This document shows, piece after piece, positions 52,192 through 60,389 of a DNA stretch of 64,000 nt; position 1 is the stretch's first letter, and every line of letters starts with the position of its first letter. This DNA is from Alphaproteobacteria bacterium. GTDB lineage: Bacteria; Pseudomonadota; Alphaproteobacteria; Reyranellales; Reyranellaceae. The notes under the pieces are model-generated. The model was not told where the DNA came from and searched no databases. It saw only the letters and a program-made list of their open reading frames with translations. The stretch covers positions 326,001 to 390,000 of the forward strand of contig JAHBYP010000004.1 in NCBI GenBank assembly GCA_019635875.1. Reading direction: 5' to 3'. The position numbers were made by a program, and so were the translations under genes.

Positions 52192-52479
52192 ATGAAACTC
52201 AAGCCCTTGCACGATCGTGTCCTGATCCAGCCGACCGATGCCGAGACCAAGACCAAGGGCGGCATCATCATTCCCGACACCGCCCAGGAGAAGCCGCAGC
52301 AGGGCAAGGTGGTCGCCGCCGGCAAGGGCGCGCGCCTCGAGGACGGCCGCCTGCAGCCGCTCGACGTCAAGGTCGGCGACGTGGTGATGTACGGCAAGTG
52401 GTCGGGCACCGAGGTCAAGCTCGGCGGCGTCGACTACGTGATCCTCAAGGAAAGCGACATCATGGGCGTGGTCGGCTGA
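52192..52479 (+). CDS. groES: Co-chaperonin GroES
   Basis: 95 aa, full length. [20 protein letters not shown], mobile loop [18 protein letters not shown], roof [18 protein letters not shown], and C-terminal [19 protein letters not shown]. Canonical co-chaperonin with the hydrophobic GGIIIP loop intact. groEL does not follow: the next gene 19 bp on is an inositol-monophosphatase homologue. The partner must be elsewhere in the genome, perhaps alongside another groES copy. Confidence 0.96.
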
Positions 52480-52498: not shown

Positions 52499-53341
52499 AT
52501 GACGCTGCGCGACGGCGATATCGAGAACGTCGCCGAACTCATGAAGGAGAGCGCGACGGCGGAACTGCTGTCGCGCTTTCGTCGTCTTCAGGAAGGCGAC
52601 ATCCGCGAGAAGGCGCCGGGCGACCTGGTGACCGTGGCCGACGTTGCCAGCGAGCAGCGTCTCGCCAGCGGGCTGTCGAAGATCCTGCGCGGCGCGCCCG
52701 TCGTGGGCGAGGAGGCGGTCGCCGCCGAGGCCGGGCTGATCTCGCACATCGCCGAGGCCGAGGCCGCGTGGATCGTCGATCCGCTCGACGGCACGTCGAA
52801 CTTCTCCAAGGGCATCGAGCGCTTCGCCATGATCGTGGCCCTGGTACGCGGCGGCGAGACCGTCGCCGGCTGGATCTACGAGCCGGTGCGCGGGCGCATG
52901 GCGATCGCCACGCTGGGCGGCGGGGCAACGATCGATGGCGTGCGCATGGAGTTGCCGGCGACCGGCCCCCTGCGCGACGCGCATGGCTTCGTCGGCTACA
53001 AGATCAAGCGCGAGGTCGAGCGCAGCATGCGCGGCGGCGCCAGGCGCCAGTTCGGCGGGCTCTCGACGCTGGCCTGCGCCGGCATCGAGTATCTCGAGAT
53101 CCTCGCCGGCCAGGCGCATTTCTCGCTCTATCGCCGCACGCGCGCCTGGGATCATGCCGCCGGCACCCTGCTGCTGCGCGAGGCAGGCGGGCTGGCCAAC
53201 CGTCACGACGGCAAGCCCTATCACCCGACCCAGCCCGATAGCGCCGGCATCCTCACGGCGCCCGACGAGAAGCGCTGGGTCGAGCTCTACGAATTGCTGC
53301 TGGGGGCGCCGGCGCCGCTGCTCGATCGCGGCTCGTCCTGA
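52499..53341 (+). CDS. Inositol monophosphatase family protein
   Basis: 280 aa. Lithium-sensitive phosphatase family: DLVTVADVASEQRL, metal Glu in VVGEEAV, WIVDPLDGTSNFSKGIERF (metal Asp pair) and the second-site WDHAAGTLLLREAGG. Substrate could be inositol phosphate, histidinol phosphate or another sugar phosphate; residues seen do not decide. 19 bp after groES on the same strand. Its last 55 bp overlap the receiver gene on the other strand. Confidence 0.9.
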   Translation: MTLRDGDIENVAELMKESATAELLSRFRRLQEGDIREKAPGDLVTVADVASEQRLASGLSKILRGAPVVGEEAVAAEAGLISHIAEAEAAWIVDPLDGTSNFSKGIERFAMIVALVRGGETVAGWIYEPVRGRMAIATLGGGATIDGVRMELPATGPLRDAHGFVGYKIKREVERSMRGGARRQFGGLSTLACAGIEYLEILAGQAHFSLYRRTRAWDHAAGTLLLREAGGLANRHDGKPYHPTQPDSAGILTAPDEKRWVELYELLLGAPAPLLDRGSS

Positions 53342-53721
53342 TCCGCATCGGGCACGAAGTGCAGGGCGGCGGCCCGGACGACCTCTGGCCCGTCGAACGG
53401 CTTGGCGAGGCGCGGCGCATTACGGAACTCCGGCGGAATCAGCTCGGCCTCGCCGTAGCCCGTCAGGAACATGATCGGCACGCCTGTGTCGAGCAGCCGC
53501 CGGGCCAGCGGGAAGCAAAGCTCACCGGCGAGATTGATATCGAGGACGGCGCCATCGAGGGCACCCTCTTCAGCGCGTTGCATCGCCTGGTCCACGCGCC
53601 CGACGGGGCCGACAACCTGGCAGCCGCATTCCTCGAACAGCTCGCGGATCGTCTCGGAGACGAGGAAGTTGTCCTCGACGACCAGGATGCGCAGTCCACG
53701 CAGTTCGGGTGGCGGGCTCAT
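53287..53721 (-). CDS. Single-domain response regulator (FAT-GUY-like receiver)
   Basis: 144 aa from the ATG at 53721; the frame is open further upstream through the kinase gene in another frame. Receiver residues: acidic pair in VVEDN, phospho-acceptor Asp61 (GAVLDINLAG), Lys107 (LAKPFD). VPIMFLTGYGE at 81-91 resembles the PFxFATGY motif of the FAT GUY receivers that pair with HWE/HisKA_2 kinases in alphaproteobacteria. No output domain. It starts 18 bp after the kinase stop, so it is the third gene of the cheB-kinase operon. The 3' end overlaps the IMPase gene by 55 bp. Confidence 0.88.
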   Translation of the reverse strand: MSPPPELRGLRILVVEDNFLVSETIRELFEECGCQVVGPVGRVDQAMQRAEEGALDGAVLDINLAGELCFPLARRLLDTGVPIMFLTGYGEAELIPPEFRNAPRLAKPFDGPEVVRAAALHFVPDADQDEPRSSSGAGAPSSNS

Positions 53722-53738
53722 TGCGCCCTCCCCGCAGG

Positions 53739-56700
53739 TCAGTTGCCCTGGATGTTGCCCTTGGCGGGAAACTCGATGCTCCAACGCACACCGGTGCTGG
53801 AAGGCTCCATGCTCGCCGTGCCCTGAAGCTCGAATTCGACACTGCGCTTCACGAAAACCGTGCCGAAGCCGTCGACCAGCGGGCCGTTCACAGGCGGCCC
53901 ATCGCTTTCCGTCCAGCTGAGCGTCATGCTGCCATTCGCGTCGACCGGGCGCCACGCGACATCGACGCGACCGCCGTTCTTCGACAGGCTGCCGTACTTG
54001 GCCGCGTTGGTCGCCAGTTCGTAGAACACCATGCCCAAGGTCGCGGCCGCGCCGGGCGTCAGGCGCAGATCGGTGCCGTGCAAGGCGACATCGGCGCTGT
54101 CCTTCTCGACATGGCCTTGCAGCGCCGTGCCGATCACCGCGCGCAGGCTGGCGCCGGTCCAGTTGGTGCGCGACAGCAGGTCGTGCGTCGACGCCATCGC
54201 GCGCAGCCGGCCGAGGAAGGCTTCCGAGAAATCGGTCAGCGACTCGCTGCTCTTCATCATGCGCGAGGCGAGCGCGCCGATCGTGGTGATGATGTTCTTC
54301 ACCCGGTGCTGCAGCTCGTAGAGCAGTACTCGCTGATGCGCCTCCGCCGCCTTGCGCTCCGAGATGTCGACGAGCGCGGCGATTCCGCCGCGCACCTGGC
54401 CGGCCTCGCCGAACAGCGGAGTCGCCGACATCATGACGTCGACCCGGCTGCCGTCGGCGCGCACCAGGTGGCCCTCGAAGCCGGGCACCGCCTGGCCCGA
54501 TTGCGCCGCGCGCTGCAGCGGATGCTCGGCGGGCCTCAGCTCGCGGTCGCCCTCGAACACACGCAGCGCCGTCGTCACCGGCCGCGGCCCGCCGGCCTCG
54601 AAGTCCTCGCCATTCTGGCCCAGCAGGTGGGCGCCGTAGCGGTTGACGCGCACGCGCTCGCTGCGGTTGTCCTCCATGATCAGGATGCCGACCGGCAGCA
54701 GGTTGAGCAGGGTCTCAAGGCTCTGCACCCGATTGCGAAGGTCGGTGGTGAGCTCGCCGATGCGCGCCTCGGCGGCGGTGATTCTGGTGACGTCCATGAA
54801 GGTGATCACCACGCCGCCGATGACGTTGTCGACGGTTCGATAGGGCATCATCCGCATCACGTAGCGCGTGTCGTTGTGGGTGCTCTGGACCTGCCGCTCG
54901 ATGGTCGCCAGTGTGCGCATCACGCGCTCGGCGTCCTCCTGCACCGAGTCGAGCTCGAAGCGGGCGCGCACATGCGTGATCGGCCGGCCCGTGTCGCTCT
55001 CGACCAGGCGGAAGAGATCCTTGGCCGCGGGGGTGAAGTTCTTCACCGATAGGTTGCGGTCGAGAAAGATGGTGGCTATCTGCGTGCTCTCCAGCAGGTT
55101 GGCGACGTCGGAGTTCGCCCGGCTTAGCTCGTCGACGCGTGCGTTGAGCTCGGCGTTGACGGTCTGCAGCTCCTCGTTGATCGACTGCAGTTCCTCCTTG
55201 GAGGTCTCGAGCTCCTCGTTGGCGGACTGCAGCTCCTCGTTCATCGAGGACAGCTCCTCGTTGCCCGACTTCAGCTCCTCGTTGGAGGATTCCAGCTCCT
55301 CGGTGGTGGTCTGCAGGCGCTCCTTGGTGGCGCGAAGCTCCTGCTCGATCTGGCGCAGGCCGGCGCTTTCCAGGTCTTCGCCCGCCACCGACAGCTCTTC
55401 CTCCGCCGCGGTCTTGATGCCGCCGACGTCCTGGAAGATCACCATGAAGAGCGGATCGTGGGCAGGCCCGGGCCGGATCGGGTGAATGATCAGGTCGAGC
55501 GACTGGCGACCGCCATTGGTGCCGACCGCGACATTGCGCTGGGTCACGGTCTGGCCGGTGCTGACCGCCTTGTGCACCGCGGCGCGCAGGTCCGGCCGCA
55601 GGCCCTGGCGCGCCATGCTGAAGATGTCGATACGCGGCGCGCCCGGCGCCAGCTCCAGGTACTTGCCGGTGCGCGCCGAGCCGTGCAGCAGGTCACCGTC
55701 GGCGTTGATCACGACGTAGGCCGGCGCAAAGCGCTCCAGGAGCTGCCGCTCAGCCAGGGTCTGGATCGGCTCCTGCGCGACCTGTACGCGGTCGCCGGGC
55801 GCGAGGCGCCGGCGCGCGATGTCCGGCGTGGTCAGCGGGAACTCGGGCAGCCGGCGGTCGATCTGCGGGCGCCGGCGGAAGATGCGGTGCGTCTTGTCGA
55901 CGGTCGAGAACATCCGCGAATGACGCGTGACATTCTCCGACGTGCCGAGGAACAGGAAGCCGGGATCGTTGAGCGCGTAGTGGAACAGGGGAATCAGCCG
56001 GTTCTGCAGATCGGGCGTCAGGTAGATCAGCAGGTTGCGGCAGCTGACGAGGTCGAGCTTGGAGAACGGCGCGTCACGCAGCAGGTTGTGCGCCGAGAAC
56101 AGGCAGATTTCGCGCAGGTCGCTGGCGATGCGGTAGCTGCCGTCCTCGCGCACGAAATGCCGTTCCAGCCGCGCTGGCGAGACGTCGCGTGCGATCGTCG
56201 AGGGGTAGCGGCCGACGCGCGCGATCTGCAGCGACTGCTCGTCGATGTCGCTGGCGAAGATCTGCAGCCTGGGCGCGGCCTGCGTCTTGGGCATGTGTTC
56301 GCGCAGCAGGATGGCGATGGAGTAGGCCTCCTCGCCGGTCGAGCAGCCGGGCACCCAGACGCGCACGGAATCGTCCGGCCCCTTGCCGTGGAACAGCGCC
56401 GCAATGACCTCGCGCTCCAGAGCCTCGAAGGCAGCCGGGTCGCGGAAGAAGTTGGTGACACCGATCAGCAGGTCCTGCAACAGCGCGTCGAGCTCCTGCG
56501 GCTCCTTGCGCAGGCGCTCGATGAACTCGGGGATCTGATCGATCTGCAGTACCTGCATGCGCCGCTGCACGCGGCGCGCCACTGTCTTGTCCTTGTAGCC
56601 GGTGAAGTCGTGCCCGGTGCGCAGGCGCAGCAGAGTGGTGATCTGCGAAAGGTGGTCGACGGTCTCCTGCAGGACGCCATCGGGGCCTTTGCGGCCATCG

Positions 56701-57314
56701 ATGCGCGTGAGGTGCTGGAAGTAGTCGGTGAGCTTGGCCGCGATCTCGTCGATCGGCAGGACGAAGTCGACCATGCCCGTGCGCACGGCGCTGCGCATCA
56801 TGCCGTCGTACTCAGCGCCGTCCTGGGCGAGGGTCAGGCCGCCATGCTCCTTGATCGCGCGCAGGCCGATGGTGCCGTCGCTGCCGGTGCCCGAAAGGAT
56901 GACGCAGGCGGCGTTCTCGCCCTTGGCGGCCGCCAGCGACAGCAGGAACGCATCGATCGGCGTGCGCAAGCCGCGCTGCTCGGTCACCGGTCCAAGATGC
57001 AGGCGGTCGTCGGCGATGGTCAGCGTCTTGTTGGGCGGGATGATGTAGATGTGATCCGGCTCGATGCTCATGCCATCGCCTGCCTCGACCACCGGCAGGT
57101 CCGCGGTGCGATCGAGCAGGCCGGGCAGGACGCTGGCGTGCGACGGATCGAGGTGCTGGACGATGACGTAGGCGATGCCGCTGTCCGGCTTGAGGATCGG
57201 CAGCAGCGCCTCGAGGGCGCCGATGCCGCCGGCCGAGGCGCCGATGCCGACGACCGGGAGATTGACCACCGGCTGATGGTCCGCGGCCTCCGTGGTCCTA
57301 GGCTTCCTGCTCAT
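53739..57314 (-). CDS. CheB-CheR-PAS-HWE histidine kinase fusion
   Basis: 1191 aa. CheB domain (18-200) keeps its triad Ser27 (GIGASAGG), His55 (VQHLDPSH), Asp147 (SGTGSDGT). CheR domain (about 215-480) shows VWVPGCSTGEEAYSIA and VSCRNLLIYL. PAS-like region, then a long coiled coil of EEL(Q/K)S(A/S/G)NEEL-type repeats (about 655-745), two more PAS domains, and a kinase core with His1003 (LQHRVKNII), N box FYELATNAAKYGSLS and WTE (1134-1136), defining the HWE family. No receiver gates the CheB part. Start at 57314 overlaps the upstream cheB end by 17 bp. Likely a cytosolic sensor kinase with in-built methylesterase/methyltransferase-like modules. Confidence 0.93.
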   Translation of the reverse strand: MSRKPRTTEAADHQPVVNLPVVGIGASAGGIGALEALLPILKPDSGIAYVIVQHLDPSHASVLPGLLDRTADLPVVEAGDGMSIEPDHIYIIPPNKTLTIADDRLHLGPVTEQRGLRTPIDAFLLSLAAAKGENAACVILSGTGSDGTIGLRAIKEHGGLTLAQDGAEYDGMMRSAVRTGMVDFVLPIDEIAAKLTDYFQHLTRIDGRKGPDGVLQETVDHLSQITTLLRLRTGHDFTGYKDKTVARRVQRRMQVLQIDQIPEFIERLRKEPQELDALLQDLLIGVTNFFRDPAAFEALEREVIAALFHGKGPDDSVRVWVPGCSTGEEAYSIAILLREHMPKTQAAPRLQIFASDIDEQSLQIARVGRYPSTIARDVSPARLERHFVREDGSYRIASDLREICLFSAHNLLRDAPFSKLDLVSCRNLLIYLTPDLQNRLIPLFHYALNDPGFLFLGTSENVTRHSRMFSTVDKTHRIFRRRPQIDRRLPEFPLTTPDIARRRLAPGDRVQVAQEPIQTLAERQLLERFAPAYVVINADGDLLHGSARTGKYLELAPGAPRIDIFSMARQGLRPDLRAAVHKAVSTGQTVTQRNVAVGTNGGRQSLDLIIHPIRPGPAHDPLFMVIFQDVGGIKTAAEEELSVAGEDLESAGLRQIEQELRATKERLQTTTEELESSNEELKSGNEELSSMNEELQSANEELETSKEELQSINEELQTVNAELNARVDELSRANSDVANLLESTQIATIFLDRNLSVKNFTPAAKDLFRLVESDTGRPITHVRARFELDSVQEDAERVMRTLATIERQVQSTHNDTRYVMRMMPYRTVDNVIGGVVITFMDVTRITAAEARIGELTTDLRNRVQSLETLLNLLPVGILIMEDNRSERVRVNRYGAHLLGQNGEDFEAGGPRPVTTALRVFEGDRELRPAEHPLQRAAQSGQAVPGFEGHLVRADGSRVDVMMSATPLFGEAGQVRGGIAALVDISERKAAEAHQRVLLYELQHRVKNIITTIGALASRMMKSSESLTDFSEAFLGRLRAMASTHDLLSRTNWTGASLRAVIGTALQGHVEKDSADVALHGTDLRLTPGAAATLGMVFYELATNAAKYGSLSKNGGRVDVAWRPVDANGSMTLSWTESDGPPVNGPLVDGFGTVFVKRSVEFELQGTASMEPSSTGVRWSIEFPAKGNIQGN

Positions 57315-58347
57315 CGCGCGTGGTGCCCCCGCTCTGGGCACTGGGTAGCATTTCGGCGGTCCCACCGCCATCGCGCATCAGTTCCATGATGAGCTGAACA
57401 TCGCGGCTGTAGTCCAGGGCACGCTCGGCCAGGTGATCGGCGAGCCCGTCGCGGCCCTGCTCGCGCTCGTGGGCGGACATGCGCCGGGCCAGCGCGGCGC
57501 GCTCCTGGTGCGAGCGAAGCAGCGTGCCGAGAAGGCGGTCGGCCTCGGCGCCCTGCGAGCTCAGCACCGTATCGGCGTTGTAGGCGTGCCCGACATGGCA
57601 GCGATATCGAAGCATGCCGTTGTCCTCGATCTCCCACAAAGCGCCGTGGCATTCGGGACAGGTGAAGCGCGAGGGCGTACCCAGCATGTCGTCGACTTTC
57701 ATGTCGGCCAACTCCTGTGCCGCGATGGCGGTTTCCAGCCTGATGTCGAACGGGATCTCCGGCGTCGGCCCGGCGGGCTGCCGCACCAGCCTCGCCAGCA
57801 GCGGGCCCAGGGCATCGGCATCGGCGACGTGATCAATCTCGACGTGGCGCATCGCGCTTTGCGGCATGTGCGGCACCATGGCGTCGGCCGGATCCTGCAC
57901 CACGGCCAGGCCGCCGCAACGCTTGATCGCCTTCAGGCCGGCGGTGCCGTCGGACAAGGCGCCGGACAGCACCACACCGATCACGTGGCTGCCGAAGGTG
58001 GCGGCGGCCGAGCGGAACAGCGGGTCGATCGCCGGCCGTGACAGGTTCTCGCGCGGGCCGCGGCGCAGCAGGATGTGATCGTCGTGCAGCATCAAATGGC
58101 GGTCAGGCGTCGCGACGTAGATGTGCCCGGGCTCAAAGACCGCGCCGTTGGCGGCCTCCATGACAGGCAGGGCACTCACTCGGTCCAGGATGCGGGCGAG
58201 GTGGCTCACGGCACCGGTGTGCACGACGACGAAGATCGCCGCCGGCAGGTCTTCCGGCAGATTCGCCACAATGCGCTGCAGTACCTCCAGGCTGCCGGCC
58301 GATCCACCGATGACCGCAATGTCGTGTATGCCGGCGGGATGCCGCAT
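57298..58347 (-). CDS. CheB-type methylesterase domain protein with C-terminal zinc-ribbon-like motif
   Basis: 349 aa. Catalytic Ser16 (IGGSAGS), His43 (VVHTGAVSH), Asp133 (GALSDGTAG). No N-terminal receiver, unlike chemotactic CheB. The C-terminal part has two cysteine/histidine knuckles (FTCPECHGALWE, then YRCHVGHAYN), a possible zinc site, and a helical tail. GAGGA lies 6 nt before the ATG at 58347. First gene of the operon. Since no MCP or other che genes are near, a chemotactic role is unlikely. Confidence 0.9.
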   Translation of the reverse strand: MRHPAGIHDIAVIGGSAGSLEVLQRIVANLPEDLPAAIFVVVHTGAVSHLARILDRVSALPVMEAANGAVFEPGHIYVATPDRHLMLHDDHILLRRGPRENLSRPAIDPLFRSAAATFGSHVIGVVLSGALSDGTAGLKAIKRCGGLAVVQDPADAMVPHMPQSAMRHVEIDHVADADALGPLLARLVRQPAGPTPEIPFDIRLETAIAAQELADMKVDDMLGTPSRFTCPECHGALWEIEDNGMLRYRCHVGHAYNADTVLSSQGAEADRLLGTLLRSHQERAALARRMSAHEREQGRDGLADHLAERALDYSRDVQLIMELMRDGGGTAEMLPSAQSGGTTRDEQEA

Positions 58348-58369
58348 GTCTCGTCCTCAGCTGCTCAGG

Positions 58370-58398
58370 GGCAACGCCGGCAGCGGGCTCACGTTGCC
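58370..58398. promoter_or_regulatory. Symmetric EcfG-like promoter or operator in the cheB divergent spacer
   Basis: GGCAACG (58370-58376) and CGTTGCC (58392-58398) form an inverted repeat 15 nt apart. On either strand it reads GGCAAC-N16-CGTT, one change from the EcfG -35 consensus GGAAC with perfect -10 and spacing. Minus-strand start would fall near 58366, 19 nt before cheB; plus-strand near 58402. Confidence 0.35.
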
Positions 58399-58401
58399 GC
58401 G

Positions 58402-58590
58402 GCTTCGTACGGCAAGGTACTGACCTGCCGGGCGCTCTGGCGCGGGCGCGGCGCGGGTGCCAGCATGACTCGGGCTTCTTCGCAGTACCCCCAGGAGCGG
58501 AGGCTTGGCGACCGCACGCGCGGCGAGCGGTGCCCGTGCTCCGTGTCGAGCGACCGGCCACGCCCCGCCGACGGGCGTGGCCGGCTTTTC
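58402..58590 (+). ncRNA. Candidate small RNA or attenuated leader
   Basis: Between the symmetric promoter-like element and a strong terminator lie about 190 bp with no convincing coding frame on the plus strand. A transcript of this span is predicted only from those two signals. It could also be the leader of the 75-aa gene that follows. Confidence 0.22.
58554..58589 (+). terminator. Strong intrinsic terminator with no gene upstream
   Basis: Arms 58554-58565 and 58573-58584 are a perfect 12-bp GC-rich stem with a 7-nt loop, followed by four T (58586-58589). It ends 24 bp before the 75-aa ORF and points away from cheB, whose gene runs the other way. Confidence 0.75.
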
Positions 58591-58613
58591 GCCCTCAGGA
58601 AGGAGGCGTCATC

Positions 58614-58841
58614 ATGGCCGGCACACCACGCCTCAGCACCGGCGACCATGCCGCGCTGCGCGCGATTGAAGCGGGCGGCGCGGACATTGACCAGGTCAGC
58701 CGGTACTGGCTGTCGTTCTACAGATTGATCGACGAGACGCCGGCCGGCTGTCGCATCACCGCCCGCGGGCGCGACTATCTCAGGCGACTAGCGAGCCTGA
58801 CCTATGGCGACGTCGTGCCCGCGACCGTACCCTGCTCCTGA
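58614..58841 (+). CDS. Small protein of unknown function in the signalling cluster
   Basis: 75 aa from the ATG at 58614, with AGGAGG 8 nt upstream; that good ribosome site chose this start over a longer one that would run through the terminator. No recognisable domain. A mid-protein QVSRYWLSFYRLIDET helix and a C-terminal ARGRDYLRRLASLTYGD segment look like short HTH-type or protein-binding helices. Ends 3 bp from the convergent REC-CRP gene. Not recognised. Confidence 0.65.
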   Translation: MAGTPRLSTGDHAALRAIEAGGADIDQVSRYWLSFYRLIDETPAGCRITARGRDYLRRLASLTYGDVVPATVPCS

Positions 58842-58844
58842 CAG

Positions 58845-59939
58845 TCACTCCGCGGCTCGGGGAGACGCACCGCTGATCTCCGCCGGCAGCGGCTGGTAGA
58901 TTCCCTCGACCGAGCGGACCAGGCGGTCGCGATCGACGATCTGCACCGATTTGCGCGTGGCCCGGATGAATCCTTCGCCCTCGAGCACCTGCAGGGCAAT
59001 GGTGACGCTGGCGCGACGCACGCCCAGGGCCAATGCCAGCGACTCGTGGGTCATCACCAGCCGCGACGCGCGCAGGCGGTCCTGGGCCATCAGCAGACGG
59101 CGCGCCACGCGCTGCGCGACCGTGCCGTGGCCGTGGGCGATCGCCGATTGCGTGACTTGGGCGAGCAGCGCGTGGCTGTACGCCAGCATGTGCCGGCCGA
59201 ACGCGTCGCTGGCCAGCAGGCGTCGCTCGAGAAGCCGCGCATCGAGGCGATAGCCACTGCCCTCGACGTCGACCCGCGCATCGAAGGCCGGCGGCGTGCC
59301 GAGCAGCGACGTCAGGCCGGTGGCGCCTTCGAAGCCGGTCAGGCCGATTTCGATCGTACGGCCCAGCGCCTCCCCGGTCAGCGAAACCAGTCCTCCGGTG
59401 GGGAAGACGACCGAGGCGCTGCGGTGCTGGCGCGAATCGATCAGCCGGCCGGGGATCAGCGCCACCGGCTTCAGCAGGGGCGTCAGCTCCAGCCGGTCGG
59501 CCAGCGGCAGAGTGTCGAGCAGAAGGTTGCCGGTGCGTGTCGAGGTTCCGGCGATCATCGTGTCGAGCGCCAGGCGGAACGTCGACGGCTCGACCGGCTT
59601 GGCCAGGAGGTCGCTGGCGCGCAGCTCCGGCGGCAGCGCGGTATCGGGGTAGCCGGTGACGAAGAGGAAGGGGATGCCGCGCTGTTGCAGCAGCGAGCAG
59701 ACCGGGAAGCTGTTAACGCCGTGCAGGTTGATGTCCAGCACTGCCCCATCGAGCGCGCCGTGGCGCGCCGCGGCCAGCGCTTTGTCCAGGGTGCCGACCA
59801 TGGCGGCGACCTCGAATCCGTGGTCGCGCACGAGGTCGCAAATGCCTTCGGCCGCCAGGTGGTTGTCCTCGACGACCAGGACGCGGGGTACCGCAGGCCG
59901 AACCGACCGCGGGACAAGGTGCGGAGCGGACGTGTTCAC
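58845..59939 (-). CDS. Response regulator: receiver fused to CRP/FNR-type DNA-binding protein
   Basis: 364 aa. Receiver (about 18-130) with acidic pair VVEDN, Asp69 (GAVLDINLHG), Lys114 (LLAKPVEP) and a FAT-GUY-like IPFLFVTGYPD (89-99). A cyclic-nucleotide-domain-like beta region (about 145-260, LLKPVALIPGRLIDSRQHRS onward, with an IEIGLTGFEGATGL segment) lacks obvious cAMP-contacting Arg/Glu pairs. A Crp-type HTH closes the protein (about 270-345: HGHGTVAQRVARRLLMAQDR, LALALGVRRASVTIALQVLE). Phosphorylation presumably controls DNA binding. Single gene, 143 bp downstream of a divergent start. Confidence 0.9.
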   Translation of the reverse strand: MNTSAPHLVPRSVRPAVPRVLVVEDNHLAAEGICDLVRDHGFEVAAMVGTLDKALAAARHGALDGAVLDINLHGVNSFPVCSLLQQRGIPFLFVTGYPDTALPPELRASDLLAKPVEPSTFRLALDTMIAGTSTRTGNLLLDTLPLADRLELTPLLKPVALIPGRLIDSRQHRSASVVFPTGGLVSLTGEALGRTIEIGLTGFEGATGLTSLLGTPPAFDARVDVEGSGYRLDARLLERRLLASDAFGRHMLAYSHALLAQVTQSAIAHGHGTVAQRVARRLLMAQDRLRASRLVMTHESLALALGVRRASVTIALQVLEGEGFIRATRKSVQIVDRDRLVRSVEGIYQPLPAEISGASPRAAE

Positions 59940-60083: not shown

Positions 60084-60389
60084 ATGCCGAACTCTCGCAC
60101 ACGCCGCCTGCCGCACGCCGCCGCCATTGCACTGGACGTGATCGCCGATGTCGGCTCGCGCCAGATCCGGGTGCACGAATTCGAGCTGCGCATGCATCAG
60201 CGCGGCTGCGATTCGCGCGCCGTGTCCGAGGCGCTGCGCGCCTTCGAGCGGCGCGGCTGGAAGGAGATCAGCGGCGGCATGATCGAGTTCAGCGAGGCGG
60301 CGTACCAGGCCGCGCAGAACGGCGGCGCGGAGGCGCCGCGAAGGACGCACCGTCTCAGGCGGCAGCGGGCGATCCCAAACCTTTTCTGA
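60084..60389 (+). CDS. Small protein of unknown function
   Basis: 101 aa. Basic at both ends (NSRTRRLPH, then [16 protein letters not shown]). The middle, QIRVHEFELRMHQRGCDSRAVSEALRAFERRGW followed by EISGGMIEFSEAAYQAAQ, looks like helices of a winged-helix type and may bind nucleic acid. No clear Shine-Dalgarno. Its 3' end overlaps the convergent DUF938 gene by 35 bp. Not recognised. Confidence 0.6.
   Translation: MPNSRTRRLPHAAAIALDVIADVGSRQIRVHEFELRMHQRGCDSRAVSEALRAFERRGWKEISGGMIEFSEAAYQAAQNGGAEAPRRTHRLRRQRAIPNLF

Follow-up and report, generated by a model that had tools for sequence, protein, structure and literature searches.

A CheB-CheR-HWE histidine kinase with a candidate built-in methyl-accepting coiled coil in an alphaproteobacterial genome without chemoreceptors

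CheR and CheB are known from textbooks as enzymes of chemoreceptors. What they might act on when both are fused to a histidine kinase, in a genome that has no chemoreceptor and therefore no known substrate on offer, is the question raised by a cluster at 53287-59939 of the window analysed here, a stretch of 64,000 nucleotides from contig C4 of a 6.2 Mb alphaproteobacterial genome (G000; completeness estimated at 100%). The five open reading frames described there by a sequence-only reading are all present, and their domains score above the Pfam cut-offs. Four lie on the minus strand: a stand-alone CheB without a receiver (57298-58347; Pfam, PDB match and model), a fusion kinase of 1191 residues (53739-57314; Pfam, alignment and PDB matches), a single-domain receiver (53287-53721; Pfam, alignment and profile against the PDB) and a REC-CRP regulator (58845-59939; Pfam REC and Crp-type HTH, alignment, profile against the PDB and AlphaFold model). 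The start of the fusion kinase is most likely 57314, overlapping the stop of the stand-alone CheB, and overlaps of a similar kind are found at loci L039 and L057; the start of the receiver was refined to 53721. The fifth reading frame (58614-58841, 75 residues) lies on the plus strand, opposite to the other four and convergent to REC-CRP. It looks like a real gene, because it has a counterpart in the same place in a genome of the same genus (G002; 66% identity) with a pN/pS of 0.34. Pfam and NCBIfam searches placed it in no known family, it was not found in the loci other than those of G000 and G002, and it is treated as a neighbour and left out of the mechanism proposed below. A second small reading frame without known family lies beside REC-CRP (60084-60389, plus strand; 64% identical in G002). 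No sigma-70-like promoter or terminator was found in the cluster and no FNR/FixK-type palindrome in the 64,000-nt window, and PADLOC gave nothing beyond chance matches to coiled coil. A GroES-like co-chaperonin reading frame, recognised by eye, lies outside the cluster (52192-52479, plus strand) between hflX-like and inositol-phosphatase-like genes, with no groEL next to it in the listed region.

The absence of a chemoreceptor, CheA and CheW from the neighbourhood, pointed out from the sequence alone, holds genome-wide. Neither MCP signal domains nor CheW domains were found in the whole genome, CheA is absent because it would also carry a CheW domain, and no Che pathway made up of these components is therefore encoded; the single CheR of the genome is the one in the fusion kinase. 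The MCP, CheW and CheR families were all detected in E. coli and Caulobacter, used as controls, and genome G018 likewise has no MCP, no CheW and one CheR. As the protein on which CheR and CheB usually act is thus missing, the earlier suggestion that these enzymes do something other than chemotaxis is supported. Judging from sequence, the candidate substrate of the methylesterase and methyltransferase parts is a coiled coil within the kinase itself.

The fusion kinase consists of a CheB domain (56715-57257; Pfam, alignment and PDB match), a CheR domain (55860-56651; Pfam, alignment and PDB match), a PAS-like region, the coiled coil, a PAS_10 domain (54786-55103; Pfam), a PAS_4 domain (54351-54704; Pfam) and an HWE dimerisation/phosphoacceptor and ATPase region (53760-54362; Pfam and PDB match) with a predicted phospho-acceptor at His1003, all on the minus strand. 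By its HWE_HK phosphoacceptor domain (PF07536; 79.6 bits versus a cut-off of 22.8) and its H, WxE and N-box motifs (ELQHRVKN, LSWTES and YELATNAAKYG), it is an HWE histidine kinase, and its PDB matches include the HWE structures 5epv and 6ph4 and the CheR structure 5ftw. Seven further HWE kinases are encoded in the same genome. Ser27, His54 and Asp146 of the fused CheB domain are invariant in the alignment, as is the putative triad of the stand-alone CheB (Ser16, His43 and Asp133) in 12 homologues. The C-terminus of the stand-alone CheB (57298-57750, minus strand) comprises a putative zinc motif, CxxC...CHxGH, also invariant in 12 homologues, and a helical domain; a fold search with the model matched no solved fold beyond the catalytic domain.

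The coiled coil between CheR and PAS_10 (residues 668-727; 55134-55313, minus strand) is an array of EELxSxN heptads and, on sequence comparison, a candidate built-in methyl-accepting region. No other part of the fusion kinase is as conserved, the coiled coil having 91% identity between the window and Mesorhizobium versus 46-66% for the CheB, CheR, PAS and HWE parts, 88-91% identity to three homologues from outside the family versus 40-73% for the other domains, and 73% identity to a protein from Sulfuricurvum. The motif Glx-Glx-x-x-[ASTG] is found in 112 of 114 heptads in a set of 19 sequences that includes Betaproteobacteria, Deinococcus, Bacteroidota, Rhodothermota, Cyanobacteria and Campylobacterota. 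When the heptad register is set with Leu at d, mean entropy in this set is 0.05 bits at the exposed position b and 0.20 bits at c, versus 0.56 bits at a and 0.68 bits at d in the core. In a structural coiled coil, the core is expected to be more conserved than the exposed positions; the pattern here is thus the reverse of that expected. The second Glx of each pair falls at heptad position c, the same register as in MCPs, in which the methylated residue is typically the second Glx, at position c (PMC6829392; PMC1079850). In Tsr, changing the first Glu at one site reduced methylation about 35-fold (PMC1079850). The window protein does not carry the full consensus [ASTG][ASTG]xx[EQ][EQ]xx[ASTG][ASTG], as the upstream [ASTG][ASTG] pair is unsatisfied, and position g of the array is often bulky. 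We put the likelihood of a self-methylated array only just short of even.

The principal rival is a plain kinase-receiver module in which the EELxSxN array is nothing more than a rigid helix for signalling or dimerisation, CheB and CheR acting on another protein. This is quite conceivable, although we lean against it: coiled coils between domains are a common place for signalling helices, and the array and CheR could simply have been passively co-inherited. Such a helix would not, however, be expected to be the best conserved part of the kinase, nor to be more conserved at b and c than in its core, and the genome has no MCP and carries the array nowhere else at an E value of 0.01. None of the other seven HWE kinases in the genome shows the array, which, across ten family genomes, is confined to CheB-CheR proteins. 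When only the coiled coil was used as query, 240 class genomes yielded 25 matches, and CheR is present in 29 of the 30 array loci inspected (family loci included); three split versions, in which the coiled coil is encoded by a separate gene directly behind CheB-CheR, were found in plasmid records. Two array proteins without CheR were found, L272 (in G176) and L247 (on a Paracoccaceae plasmid), both of which retain CheB. Their EE counts are the lowest of 24 sequences, L272 having mostly kept the Glu at c and lost that at b. Low counts without CheR are expected if CheR maintains the EE pairs, and they argue against a helix that is rigid only, but this coupling in two CheR-less cases is possibly a coincidence or the result of relaxed constraint, and array and CheR may have been inherited together as one ancestral block. 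On the Paracoccaceae plasmid, the CheB-PAS kinase without CheR is immediately preceded by a gene (L247 2207-3064) whose annotation is fixK, of Crp/Fnr type.

The setting of the kinase is conserved well beyond this genome. Scanning of the kinase alignment against 84,980 species genomes yielded 43 loci, and across Alphaproteobacteria CheB, fusion kinase and receiver follow one another in this order in about 30 or more loci (about 30 of the 43, with several others ending at contig edges). The grouping seen in the window is, therefore, not due to chance, and this shared gene order identifies the trio of CheB, fusion kinase and single receiver as the conserved unit. Its hosts are Reyranella-type bacteria, Enhydrobacter, Mesorhizobium, Aminobacter, Amaricoccus and metagenome-assembled genomes; two looser relatives of the kinase in Sulfuricurvum have neither a CheB nor a receiver gene as neighbour. 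One trio (L230; G005:C1:12000-28000) is decaying: the kinase frame is intact, the CheB has lost its middle by internal deletion, the receiver is split over two frames and REC-CRP is unlinked.

Both receivers of the cluster are akin to the FATGUY type. The single-domain receiver has a predicted phospho-Asp61, PIMFLTGY and Lys107, and the receiver of REC-CRP a predicted phospho-Asp69, PFLFVTGY and Lys114; relative to PFxFATG[G/Y], L or V stands in place of the A and the rest fits closely, and a receiver beside another HWE kinase of the same genome reads PFAFATGY. Among solved structures, the best matches to both profiles were Sma0114 (2lpm; E 1.9e-26 for REC-CRP and 9.8e-25 for the single receiver) and SdrG (5ieb; 9.8e-20 and 7.6e-23), well ahead of other receivers; both are published FATGUY receivers (PMC9981736). 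Helix alpha4 is missing in Sma0114 (PMC9981736), and the REC-CRP model matches this, with no helix of at least four residues between beta4 (88-92) and beta5 (108-110). In a tree, all 15 REC-CRP receivers form one clade (99/95) nested, with moderate support (86/83), among the trio receivers, as expected from a single fusion event of a trio-type receiver, and both groups stand apart from PhyR and the other HWE partners. The receivers of this genome most like both mostly adjoin HWE kinases. The link between the two receivers and this kinase, initially drawn from their motifs, has thus gained support from synteny, phyletic match, the tree and the best PDB matches, and a kinase-receiver module is very likely. 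Another receiver close to those of the trio, FATGUY-like with PFFFASGY, is an orphan: it lies on another contig with no HWE kinase adjoining (L233; G000:C5:48000-56000, at about 3.9-4.3 kb).

The REC-CRP regulator joins its receiver to a CRP-like beta domain, a long helix and a Crp-type HTH. The AlphaFold model (mean pLDDT 82.7) has a beta-roll, the long helix and the HTH, and its fold matches in the PDB are GlxR and CRP. Among 385 class genomes, no full-length REC-CRP was found outside the family of the window, and elsewhere only the CRP part or the receiver was matched. The full kinase is present in 9 of 75 family genomes (G000, G002, G005, G018, G019, G028, G429, G435, in which it is split over two contigs, and G439). 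REC-CRP occurs in all nine, versus six of the 66 genomes without the kinase (Fisher 4e-8, with genomes treated as independent; 1e-5 for complete genomes only, relatedness being ignored). It lies near the kinase in eight of the nine, in arrangements that differ. It may be found upstream, either on the same strand or divergent, or downstream, where it is convergent, on the same strand or about 9 kb away. Retention of this proximity through rearrangement argues for a functional link. The phospho-site, scored as damaged upon loss of the acidic pair, the Thr/Ser, the Lys or the N-terminus, is damaged in four of the seven REC-CRPs of kinase-less genomes versus none of the nine in kinase genomes (p = 0.02, on small numbers). 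It could be proposed instead that REC-CRP belongs to a different kinase and that its nearness is incidental, given that six family genomes have it without this kinase (G020 has two such genes) and that G005 has both but unlinked; this seems unlikely in view of the co-occurrence, the varied but close arrangements, the kinship of the receivers and the decayed phospho-site of some REC-CRPs in genomes without the kinase. REC-CRP is, on its distribution, a lineage-specific addition to the trio, and we consider it probably one output of the kinase. No cAMP-contact motif like that of CRP can be made out in it by eye, so that its input is probably phosphorylation, and the pocket sequence, likewise by eye, makes cAMP an unlikely ligand. 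The branched phosphorelay ending in a CRP-like regulator, proposed from the sequence alone, is thus supported as regards two FATGUY-type receivers tied to the kinase, but its REC-CRP end occurs in a single family, while the trio is found widely.

A role as an input arm of the general stress response, in which the HWE kinase and FATGUY-type receiver would feed PhyR, is improbable, even though the FATGUY receivers SdrG and MrrA act in that response (PMC5964349), such receivers are promiscuous and PhyR is present in the genome, because the PhyR locus, with NepR-like and EcfG-like reading frames, lies on another contig (C1), the cluster has no EcfG-type promoter motif, the occurrence of the kinase is followed instead by that of a dedicated transcriptional regulator, REC-CRP, and Sma0114, itself a FATGUY receiver, acts in catabolite repression (PMC5964349); the stress-response link drawn in the sequence-only reading finds no local support.

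We return to the reading in which the cluster is a two-component module that works without chemoreceptors and has an adaptation system of its own, an explanation that, taken as a whole, we regard as evenly balanced. The PAS domains of a cytoplasmic kinase would sense, and the kinase would autophosphorylate on His1003, as its family suggests. The fused CheR would methylate the c-position glutamates of the EELxSxN coiled coil joining CheB-CheR to PAS-HWE, and the fused and stand-alone CheB would demethylate or deamidate the same residues, the level of methylation setting kinase gain, as in chemoreceptors. Phosphate would pass from the kinase to the two related FATGUY-type receivers, the single-domain one acting as a relay, sink or hub, as described for MrrA and SdrG, and REC-CRP as a CRP-fold regulator in which phosphorylation would replace the cyclic nucleotide as input. 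The wider proposal is a tentative one, to which we give somewhat less than an even chance: CheB-CheR-PAS histidine kinases of several phyla may be self-contained methyl-accepting kinases, in which a single cytoplasmic protein would hold receptor-type methylation memory, with no chemoreceptor, CheA or array involved, and in this lineage would drive a CRP-type transcription factor.

The cluster is a variant of HWE/FATGUY signalling. It shares with the systems of Sma0114, SdrG and MrrA an HWE phosphoacceptor and ATPase and an adjacent FATGUY-type receiver, but differs in that the kinase carries CheB and CheR as fused domains and that the other FATGUY-type receiver forms part of a CRP-type DNA-binding regulator. 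It resembles MCP adaptation in its CheR and CheB with putative catalytic residues, its heptad coiled coil and its Glx pairs at b/c (PMC6829392; PMC1079850), but has no MCP, CheA or CheW, and the candidate substrate is in the same polypeptide, directly before the PAS-HWE kinase. The Che3 system of Rhodospirillum centenum (CheS3 with an HWE domain; PMC3868531) likewise combines Che-type enzymes with an HWE kinase in a non-motility setting, but it has an MCP, CheA and CheW, all of which the window genome lacks. REC-CRP shares the beta-roll, long helix and HTH of CRP and GlxR, but differs from them in having an N-terminal receiver and no cAMP-contact motif discernible by eye. CheB-CheR kinase fusions are common in annotation and their domain families are known, and a CheB-CheR hybrid has been noted in passing for R. 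centenum; the open papers searched gave no description of a CheB-CheR-HWE mechanism, the trio, the REC-CRP family or the array as a methylation substrate, and an earlier mention of the architecture is possible.

Bacterial memory by methylation may, thus, exist outside chemotaxis, and if this is true, covalent sensory adaptation extends to ordinary two-component signalling in many bacteria. The array provides a prediction at residue level, namely methylation of the second Glu in every EELxSxN heptad. Published work connects FATGUY motifs with intermediary receivers and not with outputs (PMC9981736), a point against the explanation proposed here. REC-CRP, for its part, joins a FATGUY-type receiver to an output that binds DNA and runs counter to the view that these receivers are mainly intermediaries. 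Kinase homologues occur in the genetically tractable Sinorhizobium meliloti (L254) and Rhizobium etli (L253). In L061 and other Mesorhizobium loci, from many genomes, at about 13.0-13.4 kb, a further receiver gene lies convergent to the trio, and another is found upstream.
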